From Synechococcales cyanobacterium T60_A2020_003 (GTDB taxonomy: Bacteria > Cyanobacteriota > Cyanobacteriia > RECH01), in assembly GCA_015272205.1 (NCBI GenBank), contig JACYMB010000128.1, forward strand, positions 1 through 33,804: a stretch of DNA of 33,804 bases, written 5' to 3'. The translations under genes and the position numbers were made by a program. This document shows positions 10,347 through 18,519 of this stretch, piece by piece. Below the pieces are notes generated by a model, which saw only the letters and a program-made list of their open reading frames with translations, was not told the origin of the DNA and did not search any database. The first letter of the stretch is position 1; each line of letters starts with the position of its first letter.

Positions 10347-11503
10347 CCCAATTCAGCGAGTACCGTCCGCAGGCGAGAGAGCGACCGCTGATTTTCCTCC
10401 GGTGTACCCACAGTGAGGCGAATGCCGCCCCCGGTATGGCGAATCAGCGAGCCATGCGCCTTCATCTTCAAAAACAGCGTTTCTAACCCGTCATCACCTC
10501 CAGACTGTCGTCGGACGTAGATAAAGTTGGCATCACTCGGCCATACCCGTAGTTCCGGCATCGCCACCAGGGCATCGGTCAGAGTTTGACGTTCCTGGAG
10601 CAACAGCGGAATCGAGGCCAAGAGTGCCTGCCGATGTTGTAAAACCAGCAGTGCCCCGATTTGGGAAAAACTCGGCAAGTTATAGGGCAAGCGCACTTTC
10701 TCCAATGCCGCAATCAATTCAGGATGGGCGATCGCATAGCCCACCCGCAACGACGCCAACCGAAACGCTTTGGAGAAAGTTCGCAACACGACCCAGTTGG
10801 AATGCTGTGCTAACTCCGCAACAACAGTCGTTTGGCTAAATTCAAAATAGGCTTCGTCGATGATCACCAGAATGTGGGCGGGGAGCGATCGCAGCCAGTT
10901 TAGTTCCGCCTCGGTCATGGTGTTCCCAGTGGGTGAGTTGGGATGCACCATGCACACCACCCGAATCGGGGGAATATCTTGCTCTTGAGACGTCTCTTCG
11001 GAATCAGCGATCGCACTTCGAGCCGCGTCTAAATCTAGCTCAAAGGTTTCGTCAGAGCGATCGATGCTAACCACTGGAATGCCGAGCGTTTGCGCCAGAA
11101 TGCCGTACATGGAGAAGGTTGGTGTTGCCACCAAAATAGAGCCTTCGTTGCCCAAACAGGTCGCAATCAACAACGACCGAATCAACTCATCCGATCCGTT
11201 TCCTACAGAGATCTGTTGGGTCGTGATACCTGGATCTACGGGGGCAGATTCGTTGACATATTGGGCGATCGCGTCTTTCAAGCTCGCGTGGCGGCCATCA
11301 GGATAGCGGTTTGATTCAATCTCGTTTTGAAACTGCCAGCCAAGTTTCTCCTTCAGATCCGCAGGTAAGTCGTAGGGACTTTCGTTGGAATCAAGGCGAT
11401 CGATTGCACCTGTATGAGCCTGCACTGGACTACCATCTCCCCCACCGGGATGGGGCACGTAGGCGGAAAGGTAGGCAAGGTCAGAGCGCAGAAACGGCAG
11501 CAT
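10343..11503 (-). CDS. hisC: Histidinol-phosphate aminotransferase
   Basis: A class I/II aminotransferase of 386 residues. It converts imidazole-acetol phosphate and glutamate to histidinol phosphate in histidine synthesis. Visible landmarks are [11 protein letters not shown] (34-46), the NRYPDG motif, [10 protein letters not shown] (99-108), HPNSPTGN (187-194), DEAYFEF (216-222) and the PLP-binding lysine Lys245 in [16 protein letters not shown]. The final arginine-containing [14 protein letters not shown] is also present. Length is usual for cyanobacterial HisC. It is convergent with the lipoprotein gene, and the stop codons share bases. Confidence 0.94.
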
Positions 11504-11542
11504 AGGATTGAGTGGGGAGTGTAATGAACCATTTCCATCTTA

Positions 11543-11612
11543 TTACAGGGGAGTTCTCCGGAGGGCGATCGCTCTGGTTACAGGGGAGTTCTCCGGAGGG
11601 TGATCGCTCTGG
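11543..11612. repeat. 35-base tandem duplication containing HIP1
   Basis: Two copies of a 35-base unit (TTACAGGGGAGTTCTCCGGA then GGGCGATCGCTCTGG) lie head to tail at 11543-11577 and 11578-11612. The second copy differs at one base, which turns the HIP1 octamer GCGATCGC into GTGATCGC. The unit also contains the palindromic core TTCTCCGGAG. It lies in non-coding sequence upstream of hisC. Confidence 0.8.
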
Positions 11613-11617
11613 GTGTG

Positions 11618-11684
11618 AGATCTGCGACTTCTGCTGTGGGTTGTGCTGTAACCTATTGAGTGGCTAACCAGAAGCCGCAGATCT
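11618..11684. repeat. Hairpin repeat, second copy of family
   Basis: AGATCTGCGACTTCT at the left pairs with AGAAGCCGCAGATCT at the right (14 of 15 positions), with about 37 bases between. The arms match those at 997-1062 except for the CCCG/TGCG change. Confidence 0.75.
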
Positions 11685-11783
11685 TGGGTACGGAAGGCGG
11701 GGGGCGATCGCTCCCCTGTACCAAATTCCAAAGGTTTCTAAACAGGCGATCGCCCTTGTTCCACAAACCGTAACAGAGCATTC

Positions 11784-11841
11784 AGATCTGCTGTAGGTTG
11801 CAAAGTGACCCGTTGGATCGCAAATGAGAAGTCGCAGATCT
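11784..11841. repeat. Hairpin repeat, third copy with a shortened left arm
   Basis: This copy ends in AGAAGTCGCAGATCT and begins AGATCTGCTGTAGGTTG. Against the copy at 11618-11684, about nine bases of the left arm (GCGACTTCT) are missing, while the internal GCTGTRGGTTG segment and right arm are retained. It sits just upstream of the transposase remnant. Confidence 0.65.
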
Positions 11842-11849
11842 TTGTATTG

Positions 11850-12200
11850 GGCGTTGCGCGGGTCGAGGTAATTGAGCGGCAGTCAGAGACCTTTGAGGTG
11901 TTGCCGAAGCGGTGGATTGTCGAGCAAACGTTTGGGTGACTGAATCGATTTCGATGGCTAAGCAAAGACCATGAGGTGTATTCAGAGGTGAGTGAAGCGA
12001 TGATATTGAATCCGACTCGCAAAGTAGCACTATTTCAGAGCCCCCTCCCAACTTTCCCTTGCTCTAGACGCGAGGCGGATTCCCGTAGGGTAGGGGAGGT
12101 GCCGTCAGACGCCGGGGTTCAGTGTCACCCTATAGCAGGATTCCGTATGATTTATGACTCCTTAATGTGCTTAATGCTTCGACGTTTAACAGCGGCTTAA
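11850..12200 (+). pseudogene. Decayed IS5-like transposase C-terminus
   Basis: From 11862 the frame reads VEVIERQSETFEVLPKRWIV, then EQTFG, a stop, and LNRFRWLSKDHEVYSEVSEA. This is the conserved end of an IS5-group DDE transposase in which a TGG tryptophan codon has become TGA (11937-11939). The last conserved piece, MIYDSLMCLMLRRLTAA with a stop at 12198-12200, continues in the same frame only after 147 extra bases (see 12005-12146). The N-terminal two thirds of the gene are missing, so it cannot make transposase. Assignment rests on recognised motif order (LPKRWxVExTFGWLNRxRRLSKDxE). Confidence 0.75.
12005..12146. mobile_element. Small MITE-like insertion inside the transposase remnant
   Basis: The 142-base segment is flanked on both sides by ATGAT (12000-12004 and 12147-12151), consistent with a five-base target duplication. 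Its ends are imperfect inverted repeats: ATTGAATCCGACT against ACGGAATCCTGCT (9 of 13). The interior has CCCCTCCC and GGGGAGG stretches that can pair. It has no coding capacity. Removing it and one ATGAT restores the transposase codons A-M-I-Y. Confidence 0.6.
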
Positions 12201-12226
12201 GATTTACTTTATAAACTAGCTCCAAC

Positions 12227-12294
12227 TTTTCCACAGTCCATCGAAAGTTTTCCACAGCCTCATAAGTTTTCCACAGCCCTGTAAGTTTTCCACA
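12227..12294 (+). other. Array of four identical DnaA-box-like 9-mers
   Basis: TTTTCCACA occurs at 12227-12235, 12248-12256, 12267-12275 and 12286-12294, all in the same direction, with starts 21, 19 and 19 bases apart. Most copies are preceded by AAG. TTTTCCACA is the form of DnaA box reported for cyanobacterial origins. It lies in non-coding DNA between the IS remnant and ndhF3. No dnaA or dnaN is nearby and no boxes occur on the other strand, so a DnaA-binding site is plausible but an origin is unproved. Confidence 0.55.
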
Positions 12295-12681
12295 ACTTCT
12301 TTCAAAATCTAGGGCTTGGTGTAGTAGATACTCAGGACAGCGTGCTGATATCAGCAAAAATTTTAGCTCAGTGAGCAGCCAATTGCTCACTGCATAAGAC
12401 CTCAAAACCTTTTGCCAGTAAGCGATACAGGCAATTCACAGCTACCATTCCGTGCGTTTGATAAGAAATTTCTTGAGCAGTAATCAGAAATTTTAGCTAA
12501 CCCAGACTCACGTAGATGCCCTTTAAAGGTTAATCTATTACGTATAGGCTTTTAGTGATGCAAATCTAGTTCTTGATAGATTAACCCGTCGTCGGTGGTC
12601 GATTACACCACCTTGGGGTGTTGGTTTTTGTGTCGCTATCAACGTCCAGGCTTTAGCGTCCATTTTATTGCTGGGTATACC
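12295..12681 (+). promoter_or_regulatory. Upstream region of the CO2-uptake operon with 11-base inverted repeats
   Basis: The 387 bases before the ndhF3 ATG contain no gene. The clearest structure is GGTTAATCTAT (12528-12538) and its perfect reverse complement ATAGATTAACC (12576-12586), with centres 48 bases apart. In model cyanobacteria this operon is controlled by the LysR-type repressor NdhR/CcmR; paired arms on a helical spacing could be such an operator, but the arms do not obviously match the published NdhR motif. The promoter probably lies between or just after the arms. Confidence 0.45.
12369..12392. repeat. Perfect short palindrome upstream of ndhF3
   Basis: CAGTGAGCA and TGCTCACTG form a nine-base stem around a six-base loop. 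No T-run follows, so it is not a standard terminator. It could be an operator or part of the DnaA-box locus. Confidence 0.5.
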
Positions 12682-14544
12682 ATGAATCTGCTTTTTGCAC
12701 AGACTGCATGGCTCATTCCATGCTATCCGTTAATCGGAATGCTCCTATCGGCATTATGGTTTCCGTCGATTATTCGCCGGACAGGGCCTAGACCTGCGGG
12801 TTATGTCAATTTTGTAACAACGTTTCTTGCCTTAATCCATGCTGTGTTGGCCTTTCCGTCTCTTTGGAATCAGCCTGCACAAACACAGGTCATTTCCTGG
12901 TTACAGGTTGCGAATCTAAATCTGTCGATCCCGATTGAGGTGTCTAGCGTTACGCTAGCCGCCTGTATCGTCGTTACAGTCTTGAATTTACTAGCACAAA
13001 TCTATGCCATTGGTTATTTGGAAATGGATTGGGGCTGGGCACGCCTATTCTCGCTGTTGGCGATGTTTGAAGCGGGGATGACGGCTCTGGTGCTGTGTAA
13101 TTCGCTGTTCTTTAGCTATATGATCCTTGAGGTTTTGACCTTGGGAACCTATTTGCTGATCGGCATTTGGTTCAATCAACCGCTCGTGGTGACTGGCGCA
13201 CGCGATGCTTTCTTGACCAAGCGAATTGGGGATTTGTTTTTGCTGATGGGGGTTCTAGCGTTATATCCCCTTGCCGGAACCTGGAATTTTGATGACTTGG
13301 CAATCTGGGCTGCTACCGCAGACGTGAACCCAACCGTCATGGCGTTGGTTGGACTGGCGTTGATTGCAGGCCCGATGGGGAAATGCGCTCAGTTTCCGCT
13401 GCACCTGTGGTTGGATGAGGCCATGGAAGGTCCGGTGCCTAGTACTGTTCTGCGAAATTCTGTGGTTGTCGTGACTGGGGCATGGGTATTAGTCAAATTG
13501 GAACCTGTGCTGGCCTTATCTCCTTTTGTGATGTCTGCCACGATCGCCATTGGAGCCTTGACCGCATTGGGTGGTGTTTTGATTGCGATCGCCCAAATTG
13601 ACATTAAGCGATCACTTTCGTACCTCGTTAGCGCTTACATGGGGTTAGTATTTATTGCGGTTGGTGCGGGTTACCCTGGTATTGCGCTCTTTTTGTTGCT
13701 GCCCTATGCCCTGTCAATGGCGCTTTTGGTGATGTCTACAGGCGCGATCGTTCTCAACTGCATTACCCAAGACTTGACTCAGTTGGGTGGTCTGTGGAAA
13801 ATTCGCCCGATTACGGGAATCAGCTTTTTAGTCGGTGCAGCGAGCTTGGTCGCCTTCCCTCCCTTGGGCGGATTTTGGGGACTGTATCCGTTAGTGGATA
13901 GTCTGTGGTCAAGCAGTAGAGCCTTGATGGGGATTGTGTTAGTGGTTAACGGCTTGACAGCGTTTCAACTAGCACGGGTGTTTGGTCTGACGTTTGGAGG
14001 CAAGCCTCAGCAAATGACCGAGCGATCGCCTGAACCCCTTTGGCTGGTGGTGATGCCGATGACACTGCTAGTCGGATTTGCTTTGCACTTACCTCTGATT
14101 CTCAATTCCTTGGGACTGTTGCCCGACTGGACGGTGCTGAGTTCCGTTGCGGGAACGCTGTTGGTTTGGTCAACTCTGTTGGGGGCAGCCGTAGGGGCGT
14201 ATGTCTACCTAAGTCCTTCGGTTCCCAAGCCTGTGCAAATTCCAGTACCGACGTTCCAAAATTTGCTGGCCTACGATTTCTACACCCCCCGAATCTATCG
14301 GTCTACGGTGGTGGGTGGTGTAGATATCCTGTCTCGGATTATTGACTGGTGCGATCGCTATTTTGTCGATGGATTTGTAAACTTCGTCGGCTTGGCATCG
14401 CTCTTTAGCGGCGAGGCGCTGAAGTACAACAACACCGGAAAAGCTCAGTTCTACGTCTTTACGATTGCGGTCGGTTTATCGGTCATCTTGGCCATGGTGA
14501 GTATTCCTTTTCTCTCTGAGTCCCCGTTGCTTGCGGCTCCTTAG
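12682..14544 (+). CDS. ndhF3: NDH-1 subunit NdhF3 (CO2-uptake type)
   Basis: This is a 620-residue polytopic membrane protein, an antiporter-like proton-pumping subunit of the specialised NDH-1 complex. Typical features are many membrane helices, the charged segment DAFLTKRIGDLFLLMG, the PMGKCAQFPLHLWLDEAMEG motif with its key lysine, PVPSTVLRNSVVVV, and IAQIDIKRSLSYL. The frame is open from 12595, but I start at the ATG at 12682, where the first hydrophobic helix begins. It heads ndhF3-ndhD3-cupA-cupS, and the neighbours (cupA and a fasciclin-type cupS) identify the inducible, high-affinity NDH-1MS form rather than the constitutive NdhF4 type. Confidence 0.9.
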   Translation: MNLLFAQTAWLIPCYPLIGMLLSALWFPSIIRRTGPRPAGYVNFVTTFLALIHAVLAFPSLWNQPAQTQVISWLQVANLNLSIPIEVSSVTLAACIVVTVLNLLAQIYAIGYLEMDWGWARLFSLLAMFEAGMTALVLCNSLFFSYMILEVLTLGTYLLIGIWFNQPLVVTGARDAFLTKRIGDLFLLMGVLALYPLAGTWNFDDLAIWAATADVNPTVMALVGLALIAGPMGKCAQFPLHLWLDEAMEGPVPSTVLRNSVVVVTGAWVLVKLEPVLALSPFVMSATIAIGALTALGGVLIAIAQIDIKRSLSYLVSAYMGLVFIAVGAGYPGIALFLLLPYALSMALLVMSTGAIVLNCITQDLTQLGGLWKIRPITGISFLVGAASLVAFPPLGGFWGLYPLVDSLWSSSRALMGIVLVVNGLTAFQLARVFGLTFGGKPQQMTERSPEPLWLVVMPMTLLVGFALHLPLILNSLGLLPDWTVLSSVAGTLLVWSTLLGAAVGAYVYLSPSVPKPVQIPVPTFQNLLAYDFYTPRIYRSTVVGGVDILSRIIDWCDRYFVDGFVNFVGLASLFSGEALKYNNTGKAQFYVFTIAVGLSVILAMVSIPFLSESPLLAAP

Positions 14545-14629: not shown

Positions 14630-16123
14630 ATGCTCAGCCTCTTAATTGCTTTGCCCATTGTGGGCGCACTTGGAATCGGGCTTATGCCCCAGTCGGTATC
14701 AGCAGCTCGCCTGCGTCTGATCAGTATGGCGATCGCCGCTCTGACGTTACTCTGGACGATTTGGTTGATGATCCACTTTGATCTCAGTCAGCCGCTCTTC
14801 CAGTTTGAGGAACATCTGCCTTGGCTGCCTGCGTTGGGATTGGATTATCAACTGGGTATGGATGGTCTATCCCTAGTTTTGGTTGCGCTCAATAGTTTGC
14901 TGACGTGGGTTGCACTGTACAGCACCTCTCACACCATCGAGCGTCCTCGCTTGTTCTACTCGATGGTGCTGCTTGTGTCCGGCGGCGTGGCTGGAGCATT
15001 CTTGGCGCAAAACCTCCTCCTCTTCTTCTTGTTCTATGAATTGGAGCTAGTGCCTTTTTATCTGCTGATTTCAATCTGGGGCGGCGATCGCCGCAACTAT
15101 GCGGCCACCAAGTTCCTGATTTACACAGCGTTTTCAGGAATTTTGATTCTGGCGTCGTTCCTGGGAATGATTTGGTTCACGGGGTCTAGCTCTTTCAACT
15201 ACACCGCCCTGATGGGGCAAACCCTGCCGATGGGCTTGCAGCTTCTCCTGTTGGGCGGGTTGATCGTCGGCTTTGGCATCAAGATCCCCCTCGTTCCCTT
15301 TCACACCTGGTTGCCCGATACCTACGTGGCCGCATCGACTCCGGTGGCAATTCTTCTGGGTAGCGTGCTAGCAAAACTGGGTGCCTACGGTATTTTCCGG
15401 TTCGGTTTGGGACTATTCCCCGAAGCGTGGGCACAAATTTCACCCATCCTGGCGATTTGGGCATCCGTTAGCATCCTCTATGGCGCAATGGCGGCGATCG
15501 CCCAAAAGGACATCAAGCGCATGGTGGCCTACAGTTCAGTCGGGCACATGGGTTACATCCTGCTTGGTGGGGCGGCCTTGACCACCCTCAGCGTTATCGG
15601 TGCTGTTTCGCAAATGGTGGCGCATGGATTGATCTTGGCACTGCTGTTCCTGCTCGTGGGCTTAATTGAAACCAAAGCGGGTACGCGGGAACTAGACGTA
15701 TTAAACGGATTACTGAACCCGATTCGCGGCTTGCCTGCGGTCAGTGCGCTGTTGATTGTTGGCGCGATGGCAAGTGCAGGCATTCCCGGATTAGCCGGGT
15801 TCGTCGCAGAGTTTCTGGTGTTCCAGGGAAGCTATGCTACGTTCCCCATTCCCACGTTGTTGGCGGTGATTGGCACCGGACTCACAGCCGTCTATTTCGT
15901 GATTCTGTTGAACCGTGTTTGCTTCGGCAAATTGGACAACAAGCTGGCCTACTATCCATCGGTGAAGCTTGCAGAGAAGGTTCCAGCGCTGATCCTGGCG
16001 GGTCTCATTTTCTTTTTGGGCGTACAACCCACTTGGTTGGTGCGCTGGAGTGAGTCTACGACGACAGCGATGGTGGCGGCAGTGCCTCCGGTAACCACGC
16101 AGGTTGCCGCAAATCGCCTTTAG
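14630..16123 (+). CDS. ndhD3: NDH-1 subunit NdhD3 (CO2-uptake type)
   Basis: A 497-residue membrane protein of the NuoM/NdhD antiporter family. Visible are LGLDYQLGMDGLSLVLVALN, the glutamate-bearing ELELVPFYLLISIWGG, FGIKIPLVPFHTWLPDTYVA with its lysine, and IAQKDIKRMVAYSSVGHMG. With NdhF3 it forms the distal membrane arm of NDH-1MS and helps couple ferredoxin-driven electron flow to CO2 hydration. It starts 85 bases after ndhF3. Downstream, a Nudix gene on the other strand separates it from cupA. Confidence 0.93.
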   Translation: MLSLLIALPIVGALGIGLMPQSVSAARLRLISMAIAALTLLWTIWLMIHFDLSQPLFQFEEHLPWLPALGLDYQLGMDGLSLVLVALNSLLTWVALYSTSHTIERPRLFYSMVLLVSGGVAGAFLAQNLLLFFLFYELELVPFYLLISIWGGDRRNYAATKFLIYTAFSGILILASFLGMIWFTGSSSFNYTALMGQTLPMGLQLLLLGGLIVGFGIKIPLVPFHTWLPDTYVAASTPVAILLGSVLAKLGAYGIFRFGLGLFPEAWAQISPILAIWASVSILYGAMAAIAQKDIKRMVAYSSVGHMGYILLGGAALTTLSVIGAVSQMVAHGLILALLFLLVGLIETKAGTRELDVLNGLLNPIRGLPAVSALLIVGAMASAGIPGLAGFVAEFLVFQGSYATFPIPTLLAVIGTGLTAVYFVILLNRVCFGKLDNKLAYYPSVKLAEKVPALILAGLIFFLGVQPTWLVRWSESTTTAMVAAVPPVTTQVAANRL

Positions 16124-16220
16124 GAAGCAGGAGCATCAAAATGGCACAGGCAAGGGCGATCGCTCAGCTCAGATTAGCTACGGTGGAATCATCGTTGTGG
16201 ACGACCCAACCCATGTTGAC

Positions 16221-16628
16221 TCAAATTCCATCTCTACTGGTTGCGCCCGTCTGCACTTGGTCTTTAGAAAGCCATCTGGCTTCAAAGGGAGTATCGCCTT
16301 CGATGCCCTTGAGCACAGGTTGAGCATAGAGGGTGCGATCGCAAAATACAGCATCGTAGACAAAAACGATTTCGTGTTTTGGTTCCCCCTCGGAGACAAA
16401 GAGATTTTCTAACACTCCTAGCAGAATAGGTTCTTCAATGTTGACCTCTAGTTCCTCCCAAACCTCCTGAATCACCGCCTCCCGGCTGGATTCCCCAAAG
16501 TCGATGCCTCCTCCCACTGGTCGATAATAGACCTCCTGCCTAAAGGGTTCGTATCCCTCAGACACCAAGATGCGATCGCCCTGACGCATGACACAAATCG
16601 CAATCGGACGAATCTTCTGCCTTTTCAT
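16221..16628 (-). CDS. Nudix hydrolase lying antisense within the CO2-uptake operon
   Basis: From the ATG at 16628 the product has 135 residues and begins MKRQKIRPIAICVMRQGDRI. The Nudix box runs from Gly40: GGIDFGESSREAVIQEVWEE. It keeps metal-ligand glutamates Glu55, Glu58 and Glu59, but the usual arginine before E-U is Gln54 and the usual final glycine is Glu61. Nudix enzymes hydrolyse nucleoside diphosphates linked to another group; the substrate is unknown. An open frame extends to 16709 but would overlap the cupA start. The gene is convergent with ndhD3 and divergent from cupA, interrupting an otherwise same-strand operon. Confidence 0.85.
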   Translation of the reverse strand: MKRQKIRPIAICVMRQGDRILVSEGYEPFRQEVYYRPVGGGIDFGESSREAVIQEVWEELEVNIEEPILLGVLENLFVSEGEPKHEIVFVYDAVFCDRTLYAQPVLKGIEGDTPFEARWLSKDQVQTGATSRDGI

Positions 16629-16674
16629 CGAACATGCTAACCTTTGTTGTTGATCTACGGAGAAAACTACAGCC

Positions 16675-17982
16675 ATGGTAACTGCAATTCCGGCTCCTTC
16701 CACAATCATTCCCCCCTCTCAGCATCCCTATGCCGACATTATTCATCGCCTAGAGGCGGGCGGATCGATGCTGCCCGATACGCCAGAGAATCTAATGCAG
16801 ATCATCGGCATCTACAAAGCCTATGCGGTGCCGATGGACTTCTACTGGCGCGATCTGCTCTACATTGCCGAACGGGTCTTTTTGAATCCAATTCCGGCCT
16901 TTAAATATTTCCTGCCCCAAGAATACCTGGACTTGCACAACCACTATGCTGGCGATACAGCTGACCTCCGCATTTGGCGCGGAGAAGCCACCGCTCACCC
17001 GGAATTGCTAGAGTTCATGGAAAAGGGAGAGCTGAAGCGTAAGTTGCCGAAGCTGGTTCACCACCTCTGGCACGATCGCATCAACATGGAATTTGCTGAA
17101 GCCTGTATGCAGGCAATGTTGTGGCACCGGAAGATGTATGCGCCTCACAATCGGTTTGATGCGTTCCTGGAAACGGATGAGTATCGCCAGAATTGCGATC
17201 GCGCCATCAAAGCCTACTTCAAGAAGAATCCGCTGATGTTGGGGCTATACAAGCTATTCCCCGATATGTTCATCGAACAGGTGAAAATGCTCTCCTACTA
17301 CTCCAATCTGGGGTTATTCTGGGAAGTAATGACACCCGTCTTTTTCGAGATGTCGGATATCTACGACGAGGGTGGATTTAAAGGCGTACCCGATGCAATG
17401 AATTTCCTGATCAATGGAATTTTTGCGATCGCCGGACGCCCCATCTATCACCACGTCTACATCGATGGGGAATGCTTTGAAATTATCCCCAAAGACAAAG
17501 GGTTTATGTGGCTCTATGATGCTGCATTACCTTATGTAGAAGCAGTCTTCTACCGTACCGCCCCCTTCCGAGGCACCAAGTCCTACAACGCCCAGGCAGG
17601 TCAAGTTCCCGATGATCAGAAAGACTTCCACTACGGCATTCTCTACGCCGATGTGTTCCCGGTAGGTAGCGCTGGCATTCCACCCACACTGCTGATGCAG
17701 GATATGCTCCACTTCTTGCCTCCCTATCTCCTGGAGTATTACCAGAAGCATTGCCGGGGTGAGGACGATATGTTGATCCAGTTGGGGATTACCTTCCAGC
17801 GATCGATGTATAACGTGACGTCAGCCGTTATCCAGGCATTGCGGACGGCCTTACTCTATCCCTTAGATGACACGAATCCTGAGCATTTGATGGCGAACCG
17901 CAAGTTCTACGAGGCTCAGATGGATCGGTTCCTGCGTCCAGAGGCTCGTCTCAGCGATATTCAAAGTCAGGATTATCGTTAG
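16675..17982 (+). CDS. cupA: CO2 hydration protein CupA (ChpY)
   Basis: This 435-residue protein belongs to the ChpX/ChpY (CupA/CupB) family, which converts CO2 to bicarbonate on the NDH-1 membrane arm. Recognisable are YADIIHRLEAGGSMLPDTPENL, MDFYWRDLLYIAERVFL, and VHHLWHDRINMEFAEACM at about 128-145; the His130 and Arg135 in this last stretch are the residues I recall as placing the zinc site in the cryo-EM structure. It is soluble in overall character. CGGAG lies upstream of the ATG. NdhF3 and NdhD3 upstream and CupS downstream place it in NDH-1MS. Confidence 0.93.
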   Translation: MVTAIPAPSTIIPPSQHPYADIIHRLEAGGSMLPDTPENLMQIIGIYKAYAVPMDFYWRDLLYIAERVFLNPIPAFKYFLPQEYLDLHNHYAGDTADLRIWRGEATAHPELLEFMEKGELKRKLPKLVHHLWHDRINMEFAEACMQAMLWHRKMYAPHNRFDAFLETDEYRQNCDRAIKAYFKKNPLMLGLYKLFPDMFIEQVKMLSYYSNLGLFWEVMTPVFFEMSDIYDEGGFKGVPDAMNFLINGIFAIAGRPIYHHVYIDGECFEIIPKDKGFMWLYDAALPYVEAVFYRTAPFRGTKSYNAQAGQVPDDQKDFHYGILYADVFPVGSAGIPPTLLMQDMLHFLPPYLLEYYQKHCRGEDDMLIQLGITFQRSMYNVTSAVIQALRTALLYPLDDTNPEHLMANRKFYEAQMDRFLRPEARLSDIQSQDYR

Positions 17983-18056: not shown

Positions 18057-18461
18057 ATGCCAGACATTGTTGATATTGCAGTAAGTAATGAGGCGTTTAG
18101 CACCTTGGTGGCAGCCGTGCAGGCCGCAAGCCTCGTAGATGTCCTTAAATCTCCAGGGCCATTTACGGTCTTTGCGCCTGTCGATGCTGCCTTTGCAAAG
18201 CTCCCTCCTGGAACGGTGCAAACCCTAGTGCAGAATCCCCCCCAACTTGCCCGCATTCTGAAGTTTCATGTGGTATCCGGGAAGTATACTCGTGAGGACT
18301 TATCGAAGTTAGACTCGCTAACCTCTGTGGAAGGGGCAGATATTCGCCTCAATGTCACTGATGATGTCTTTGAGGTAAAAAACGCAACGGTGGTAATGCC
18401 CGATGTGGAGGCAGACAACGGTATTATCCATGTGATTGATAACGTCATTTTGATGGGTTAA
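18057..18461 (+). CDS. cupS: Fasciclin-domain protein, CupS subunit of NDH-1MS
   Basis: The 134 residues form a single fasciclin (FAS1) domain: [20 protein letters not shown], then the signature [31 protein letters not shown], and the terminal [13 protein letters not shown]. There is no signal peptide, so it is cytoplasmic. In cyanobacteria the gene after cupA encodes CupS, a small fasciclin-fold subunit that sits on CupA. The position here, 74 bases after cupA, supports that identity over a generic secreted fasciclin. A terminator follows. Confidence 0.86.
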
Positions 18462-18489
18462 TCAGTTCTAACCTTCGACGACAACAGAG

Positions 18490-18519
18490 ATAGGCAGGGA
18501 TAACCTCCCTGCCTATTTT
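18490..18519 (+). terminator. Rho-independent terminator of the CO2-uptake operon
   Basis: ATAGGCAGGGA, the loop TAACC and TCCCTGCCTAT form a perfect 11-base stem followed by TTTT. It lies about 30 bases after the cupS stop. Confidence 0.85.

Follow-up and report, generated by a model that had tools for sequence, protein, structure and literature searches.

An antisense Nudix gene splits the NDH-1MS CO2-uptake operon in a clade of cyanobacteria

Introduction

The genes ndhF3, ndhD3, cupA and cupS make up the NDH-1MS operon of CO2 uptake, and to our knowledge the operon of Synechocystis PCC 6803 has no insert. Passages of one study on Synechocystis describe cupA, cupS and cupAR as co-transcribed, and the operon as repressed at high CO2 (PMC11456788). 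In a stretch of 33,804 nucleotides from Synechococcales cyanobacterium T60_A2020_003 (GenBank assembly GCA_015272205.1, contig JACYMB010000128.1; hereafter the window), a complete Nudix gene lies between ndhD3 and cupA on the opposite strand. Is this an accident of one genome or an inherited arrangement, and what does the inserted gene do to an operon that would have to be transcribed through it? The original prediction, made from the sequence of the window, had suggested either mutual regulation of Nudix gene and operon or a promoter of its own for cupA-cupS. A search of the full text of open-licence papers found no description of a Nudix gene in the ndhF3-ndhD3-cupA-cupS operon, and the papers that bring together noncontiguous operons and cyanobacteria seem not to treat it.

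Gene order in the window

Profile searches place all four genes of the NDH-1MS set in the window in the expected order, in an operon that is not contiguous on a single strand, since the minus-strand Nudix gene lies inside it (Table 1). The window shares with Synechocystis PCC 6803 the same four genes, their order and, the insert apart, their single strand; it differs in the Nudix gene that separates ndhD3 from cupA on the opposite strand, whereas in Synechocystis the passages cited above treat the operon as one co-transcribed set (PMC11456788). Open reading frames and profile searches bear out the coordinates, strand and identity that the original prediction had given the Nudix gene, as well as the 46 nt that it counted to the start of cupA. 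A chance open reading frame was rejected on the strength of a Pfam NUDIX match above the gathering score (39 bits against a cut-off of 21.1) and of relatives in other genomes. A start at ATG 16709, which overlaps cupA, was likewise rejected, an alignment with 21 relatives backing the start at 16628. The ORF list extends ndhF3 to a GTG further upstream, at 12595.

Table 1. The NDH-1MS operon of the window and its inserted gene.
Feature	Coordinates	Strand	Evidence or remark
ndhF3	12682..14544	+	NCBIfam TIGR01960 ndhF3_CO2, 910 bits
ndhD3	14630..16123	+	NCBIfam NF005611, 806 bits, above cut-off; placed between ndhF3 and cupA
Convergent spacer, ndhD3 stop to Nudix stop	16124..16220		97 nt
Nudix-fold gene, antisense inside operon	16628-16221	-	135 aa; Pfam NUDIX E 9.6e-10
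Divergent Nudix-cupA spacer	16629-16674		46 nt; no consensus promoter detected
cupA (chpY)	16675..17982	+	NCBIfam TIGR01964 chpXY, 766 bits
cupS, fasciclin-domain subunit	18057..18461	+	Pfam Fasciclin 3.9e-40
Hairpin ending TTTT	18487..18519	+	14 pairs (G-T pairs counted); 25 nt past cupS stop

The region upstream of ndhF3 (11503-12681) is long and holds no recognised gene. Part of it (about 11840-12050) looks by eye like what is left of a transposase, which we take to be of the IS5 type; near 12527-12587 there is an inverted repeat, GGTTAATCT...AGATTAACC.

Distribution of the split operon

Among 388 genomes of the class, matches to cupA were found in 358 and matches to the Nudix protein in 164, and many pairs in the two match lists are adjacent and divergent. 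For the gene order around cupA, 116 high-scoring loci were examined (drawn from the best ~150 of the 358 genomes, some rows skipped), a sample that leans to cupA genes resembling that of the window. A related Nudix gene occupies the ndhD3-cupA gap in 25 of these 116 loci, antisense every time; by family code 24 of them belong to f12 and one to f24. The same antisense position is found in three further named loci and in the window. Strains with the split arrangement include Nodosilinea nodulosa PCC 7104, Phormidium tenue FACHB-1052, Leptolyngbya sp. SIOISBB and Halomicronema sp. CCY15110, among others, and with 25 sampled loci carrying it the idea that the arrangement is unique to T60_A2020_003 was dropped. 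In the 90 sampled loci without the Nudix gene the ndhD3-cupA gap has a median of 76 nt, which bears out the view of an intact antisense gene interrupting an operon whose genes otherwise lie close together.

Seven of the gaps without a Nudix gene exceed 300 nt, and four of these junctions (L079, L105, L107 and L166) contain a CDP-alcohol phosphatidyltransferase-like gene that runs in the same direction as the operon. In one genome of the window's family (G001; L194, 4957-6049) a related phosphatidyltransferase-like gene stands tail-to-tail with a relative of the inserted Nudix gene, 4 nt apart and away from cupA. The two genes may once have been paired in the ndhD3-cupA junction.

Most of the Nudix matches listed are not beside cupA, and no common function was found among the neighbours of the relatives outside the operon. 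Two genomes of one genus carry such relatives (G026, C1:4383239, and G219, C81; loci L005 and L195) at 53-61% identity to the window's protein; the similarity of the G026 copy to the window Nudix is limited to residues 1-102, beyond which it is divergent.

Two genomes carry the Nudix gene at a site from which the operon is absent. The genes of PCC 7104 (L214) run SNase ... cupS cupA Nudix ndhD3 ndhF3 ... TPR. In DLM2.Bin27 (L205, 5826-9919) and Shackletoniella antarctica (L204, 5653-9924) the Nudix gene lies directly between the SNase and TPR genes of PCC 7104, orientations unchanged, and tblastn of these two loci around the Nudix gene found no operon gene. The operon of DLM2.Bin27 is on a separate contig with an ndhD3-cupA gap of 68 nt; the cupA contig of Shackletoniella stops inside cupA, which puts the junction out of view. 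A move of the Nudix gene was rejected for both genomes, the Nudix gene having stayed and the operon having left, and the two SNase-Nudix-TPR sites read as traces of an operon that was lost or moved. Leptolyngbya sp. PCC 6406 (L228) showed no trace of this kind, and there the reading of a relocated Nudix gene stands. Given that the Nudix gene was kept at its site after the operon was lost, and that compact operons do without it, neither partner needs the other to persist, and this independence speaks against a tightly required mutual regulation.

Origin of the insertion

In a tree of concatenated NdhF3, NdhD3 and CupA (118 rows, FastTree), all 28 split operons fall inside a single clade of 35 rows (support 91) with the window outermost, together with seven compact, Nudix-free operons. 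The tree contains eight changes of state, most simply read as one gain and seven losses. A 43-row operon tree with outgroups makes the window sister to the remainder of the split clade (SH-aLRT 95), and a 41-row tree without far outgroups leaves it at the base, unplaced and not clearly with the split clade; the rows of both smaller trees were picked by hand. L084 and L143 were omitted from the operon trees, genes being missing. The position of the Nudix gene is held much more firmly than the surroundings of the operon: 28 of the 35 clade operons have the Nudix gene, whereas the largest family common to the flanks occurs in 12 of 32 of them upstream and in 8 of 29 downstream. The split arrangement is real, inherited and clade-wide. 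The most parsimonious history shown by these reconstructions would be a single old insertion followed by several losses, with moderate support for the window's place in it. The original prediction had itself named a widespread neutral insertion, with no interaction of transcripts, as a finding that would count against it; of this the widespread part holds, within one clade, and the claim of missing transcript interaction is not carried along with it.

An origin of the window's split by an independent insertion, or by lateral transfer of the whole split operon from the Nodosilinea-type clade, comes next in probability, as a possible but rather unlikely course of events. The operon tree and the window's family assignment disagree, which makes transfer possible: the operons of the family mates G001 and G002 are compact and take other places in the operon tree, and either the split state was lost there or the window's split operon was transferred. 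Of other genes of the window, the homoserine dehydrogenase is nearest to the window's own family (80%), while HisC has no match at E 1e-30 in the other three family genomes (G001-G003) and its closest relative in G026 (67%). A Nudix protein tree puts the window copy on a long branch and does not resolve its position, so that an independent insertion is possible as well, and the four junctions holding the same-strand phosphatidyltransferase-like gene show that this gap takes other genes. Against both variants, however, gene family, gap and antisense orientation are all identical in the window and the clade, and the window's operon is sister to the split clade in the 43-row tree at the support given above.

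Transcription of the split operon

Several features bear on how a split operon is transcribed. In 7 of 28 split loci the 3′ ends of ndhD3 and the Nudix gene overlap, which leaves no space for a terminator between them. In the window there is no strong hairpin within 150 nt past the ndhD3 stop, and the hairpin past cupS (Table 1), a palindrome that also turned up as a minus-strand reading, is a candidate end of the whole transcription unit. The overlaps, and a window hairpin past cupS with none past ndhD3, fit read-through across the Nudix gene. The terminator scans are low in power: of 22 loci just 4 have a strong hairpin past cupS, and of 28 loci 10 have one past ndhD3; a terminator scan across the split loci, with a weak positive control, gave a sense match in 1 of 29, 2.7 being expected from shuffled sequences. 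Rfam had no match in the window. Read-through of the operon would, by geometry, yield antisense RNA to the Nudix gene. In Nodosilinea-type genomes the ndhD3-Nudix spacers (L093, L095, L112, L117, L120, L121 and L202) contain a palindromic element of about 160 nt (GTAGGGTGCATTCGCGAAGCAATGCACC...) that resembles a dispersed repeat.

With an opposite-strand gene set among the genes of an operon, kept here in 25 of the 116 sampled loci, the arrangement has the geometry of a noncontiguous operon. The ytkD gene of Staphylococcus aureus, part of another such operon, is a Nudix gene. The term denotes an operon with an antisense gene inserted, and passages of a review (PMC7154746) on menE-menC-MW1733-ytkD-MW1731 of S. 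aureus (Saenz-Lahoya 2019) likewise describe an oppositely transcribed gene within an operon; in both cases the mRNAs would pair over the full length of the inserted gene. The genes differ, however, and ytkD lies on the operon strand; co-transcription and reciprocal regulation are reported in those passages, whereas the cyanobacterial case consists of geometry and conservation (PMC7154746).

Could the split operon likewise be a regulatory device, with Nudix and operon transcripts repressing each other (by polymerase collision and cleavage through RNase III) and the signal at the Nudix promoter tuning NDH-1MS? The geometry shared with the S. aureus operon (PMC7154746, in the passages cited) and a position and orientation held in 28 of 35 clade operons amid scrambled outer flanks argue for it. 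We nevertheless regard it as unlikely: Nudix gene and operon persist separately, the junction has no consensus promoter, and the tree demands eight changes of state, in its simplest form one gain and seven losses. The Nudix-cupA spacers, moreover, range from 46 to 928 nt, and a comparison by eye alone recognised no element common across deep branches. Two of the long spacers, of 568 nt in L084 and 928 nt in L089, hold an additional plus-strand ORF between the Nudix gene and cupA; that of L084 has 120 aa, and that of L089, which contains an internal duplication, has 235 aa.

We give the same low odds to a division of the operon by the insertion into ndhF3-ndhD3 and cupA-cupS, the latter promoted from the Nudix-cupA spacer or from the 5′ end of the Nudix gene. 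The median of that spacer (about 132 nt in 28 loci) exceeds the gap of the unsplit operon, and fourfold sites are slightly less variable in the first 20 Nudix codons (0.25) than further on in the gene (0.38; permutation p 0.034, 11 sites), a difference that may point to an overlapping signal or to translation initiation alone. The spacer is just 46 nt, the shortest observed, in the window and in L085, however, the comparison of spacers by eye speaks against this division as well, and a scan for sigma-70-like promoters over window positions 15900-16850 found none, with 0.7 expected by chance. Sections of the main text of an RNA-seq paper on Halomicronema CCY15110 (PMC11765580) name no Nudix gene, ndhF or strand-specific library.

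A more elaborate proposal joins several of these elements. The high-affinity CO2-uptake operon of a filamentous clade would have turned into a noncontiguous operon: antisense Nudix and operon mRNAs would overlap fully and repress each other, a signal from nucleotide metabolism would set the amount of NDH-1MS, and the window's lineage, with the box arginine of its Nudix lost, would keep the gene mainly for the RNA or the promoter. We consider this improbable.

The Nudix protein

The protein model of the window's gene (AlphaFold2, pLDDT 89.5) has a good Nudix fold, and Foldseek matches it to Nudix structures with probability 1.00. The nearest structures are Arabidopsis NUDX1, a pneumococcal MutT/Nudix protein and a Rickettsia ADP-ribose pyrophosphatase (PDB 5gp0, 2pqv and 4kyx). 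The fold is the same as in these NUDX1/MutT/ADP-ribose-pyrophosphatase-like proteins (Foldseek E 5e-8 to 5e-7) and the profile agrees; identity, however, is only 24-26%, and the box arginine is glutamine in the window. An NCBIfam search gives a weak profile similarity to the NAD diphosphatase NudC, which is not among the best fold matches; these are of the NUDX1/MutT/ADP-ribose types.

The full consensus Nudix box is GX5EX7REUXEEXGU. The window copy deviates from it at the arginine before the first catalytic glutamate and at the glycine after EEx, and column counts uphold the two departures, Gln54 and Glu61, to which the original prediction had drawn attention. Position 54 is arginine in 101 of 101 other aligned sequences, which makes the window Nudix the sole one of 102 without the box arginine; position 61 lies in a variable column, with glycine in 65 of the 101 others. 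The box glutamates E55, E58 and E59, which we take to be the metal-binding ones, are present in the window and in all 101 others. A C-terminal LVP..L..LL segment of the relatives is absent from the window protein in the alignment with 21 relatives. A frameshift as the cause of the shortened C-terminus was rejected, since by eye the segment appears in no other frame.

The Nudix gene in the window's lineage has diverged further than its relatives, with the box arginine lost and the C-terminus shortened, and from these two changes we infer that its activity may be altered or reduced there. The relatives are under purifying selection: over 172 pairs with dS limited to 0.05-1.5, pairwise dN/dS has a median of 0.18 and a maximum of 0.31. 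An unconserved Nudix frame, the other outcome that the original prediction had held against itself, is not what was found, the frame being kept in relatives at that median.

A service of the Nudix enzyme to CO2 uptake, for instance as a hydrolase of some nucleotide, perhaps a signal derived from NAD(P), draws on the conserved adjacency to cupA, on the weak similarity to NudC and on NADP+ and 2-oxoglutarate being given as co-repressors of the operon repressor CcmR/NdhR in parts of one report (PMC3401165), but is very unlikely in view of a family present in 164 of 388 class genomes and mostly away from cupA among the matches listed, of the many operons without the gene, of the lost box arginine in the window copy and of best fold matches other than NudC.

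Discussion

The account that we favour, at a probability of roughly 55%, is one inherited antisense insertion of a Nudix gene with a role of its own, transcription that reads through it, and a diverged copy in the window. A free-standing Nudix gene would have entered the ndhD3-cupA junction antisense a single time, in an ancestor common to the window's operon and the Nodosilinea/Leptolyngbya/Halomicronema-type clade, with several later losses. The protein would owe its retention to a pyrophosphohydrolase function of its own, probably a general one, rather than to any part in CO2 uptake. By analogy with the unsplit operon of Synechocystis, ndhF3-ndhD3-cupA-cupS is probably still one transcript, obtained by read-through. 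With such read-through across the Nudix gene the operon would count as noncontiguous, and antisense RNA to the Nudix gene would be mainly a by-product. The results so far support neither mutual regulation nor a separate cupA promoter, and control of CO2 uptake by the antisense Nudix gene would be a further possibility.

The unsplit operon and the geometry of the noncontiguous operon are known; what is new here is the Nudix-split variant of the ndhF3-ndhD3-cupA-cupS operon. Several strains that carry it are named cultures, Nodosilinea nodulosa PCC 7104 for one and Halomicronema sp. CCY15110 for another, in which read-through is directly testable. If the regulatory reading were true, these cyanobacteria would have a noncontiguous operon within their carbon-concentrating system. 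On either reading, the split operons, the clean losses and the two genomes from whose Nudix site the operon has departed form a natural series in which an antisense gene in an operon that is tolerated can be set against one that is used.
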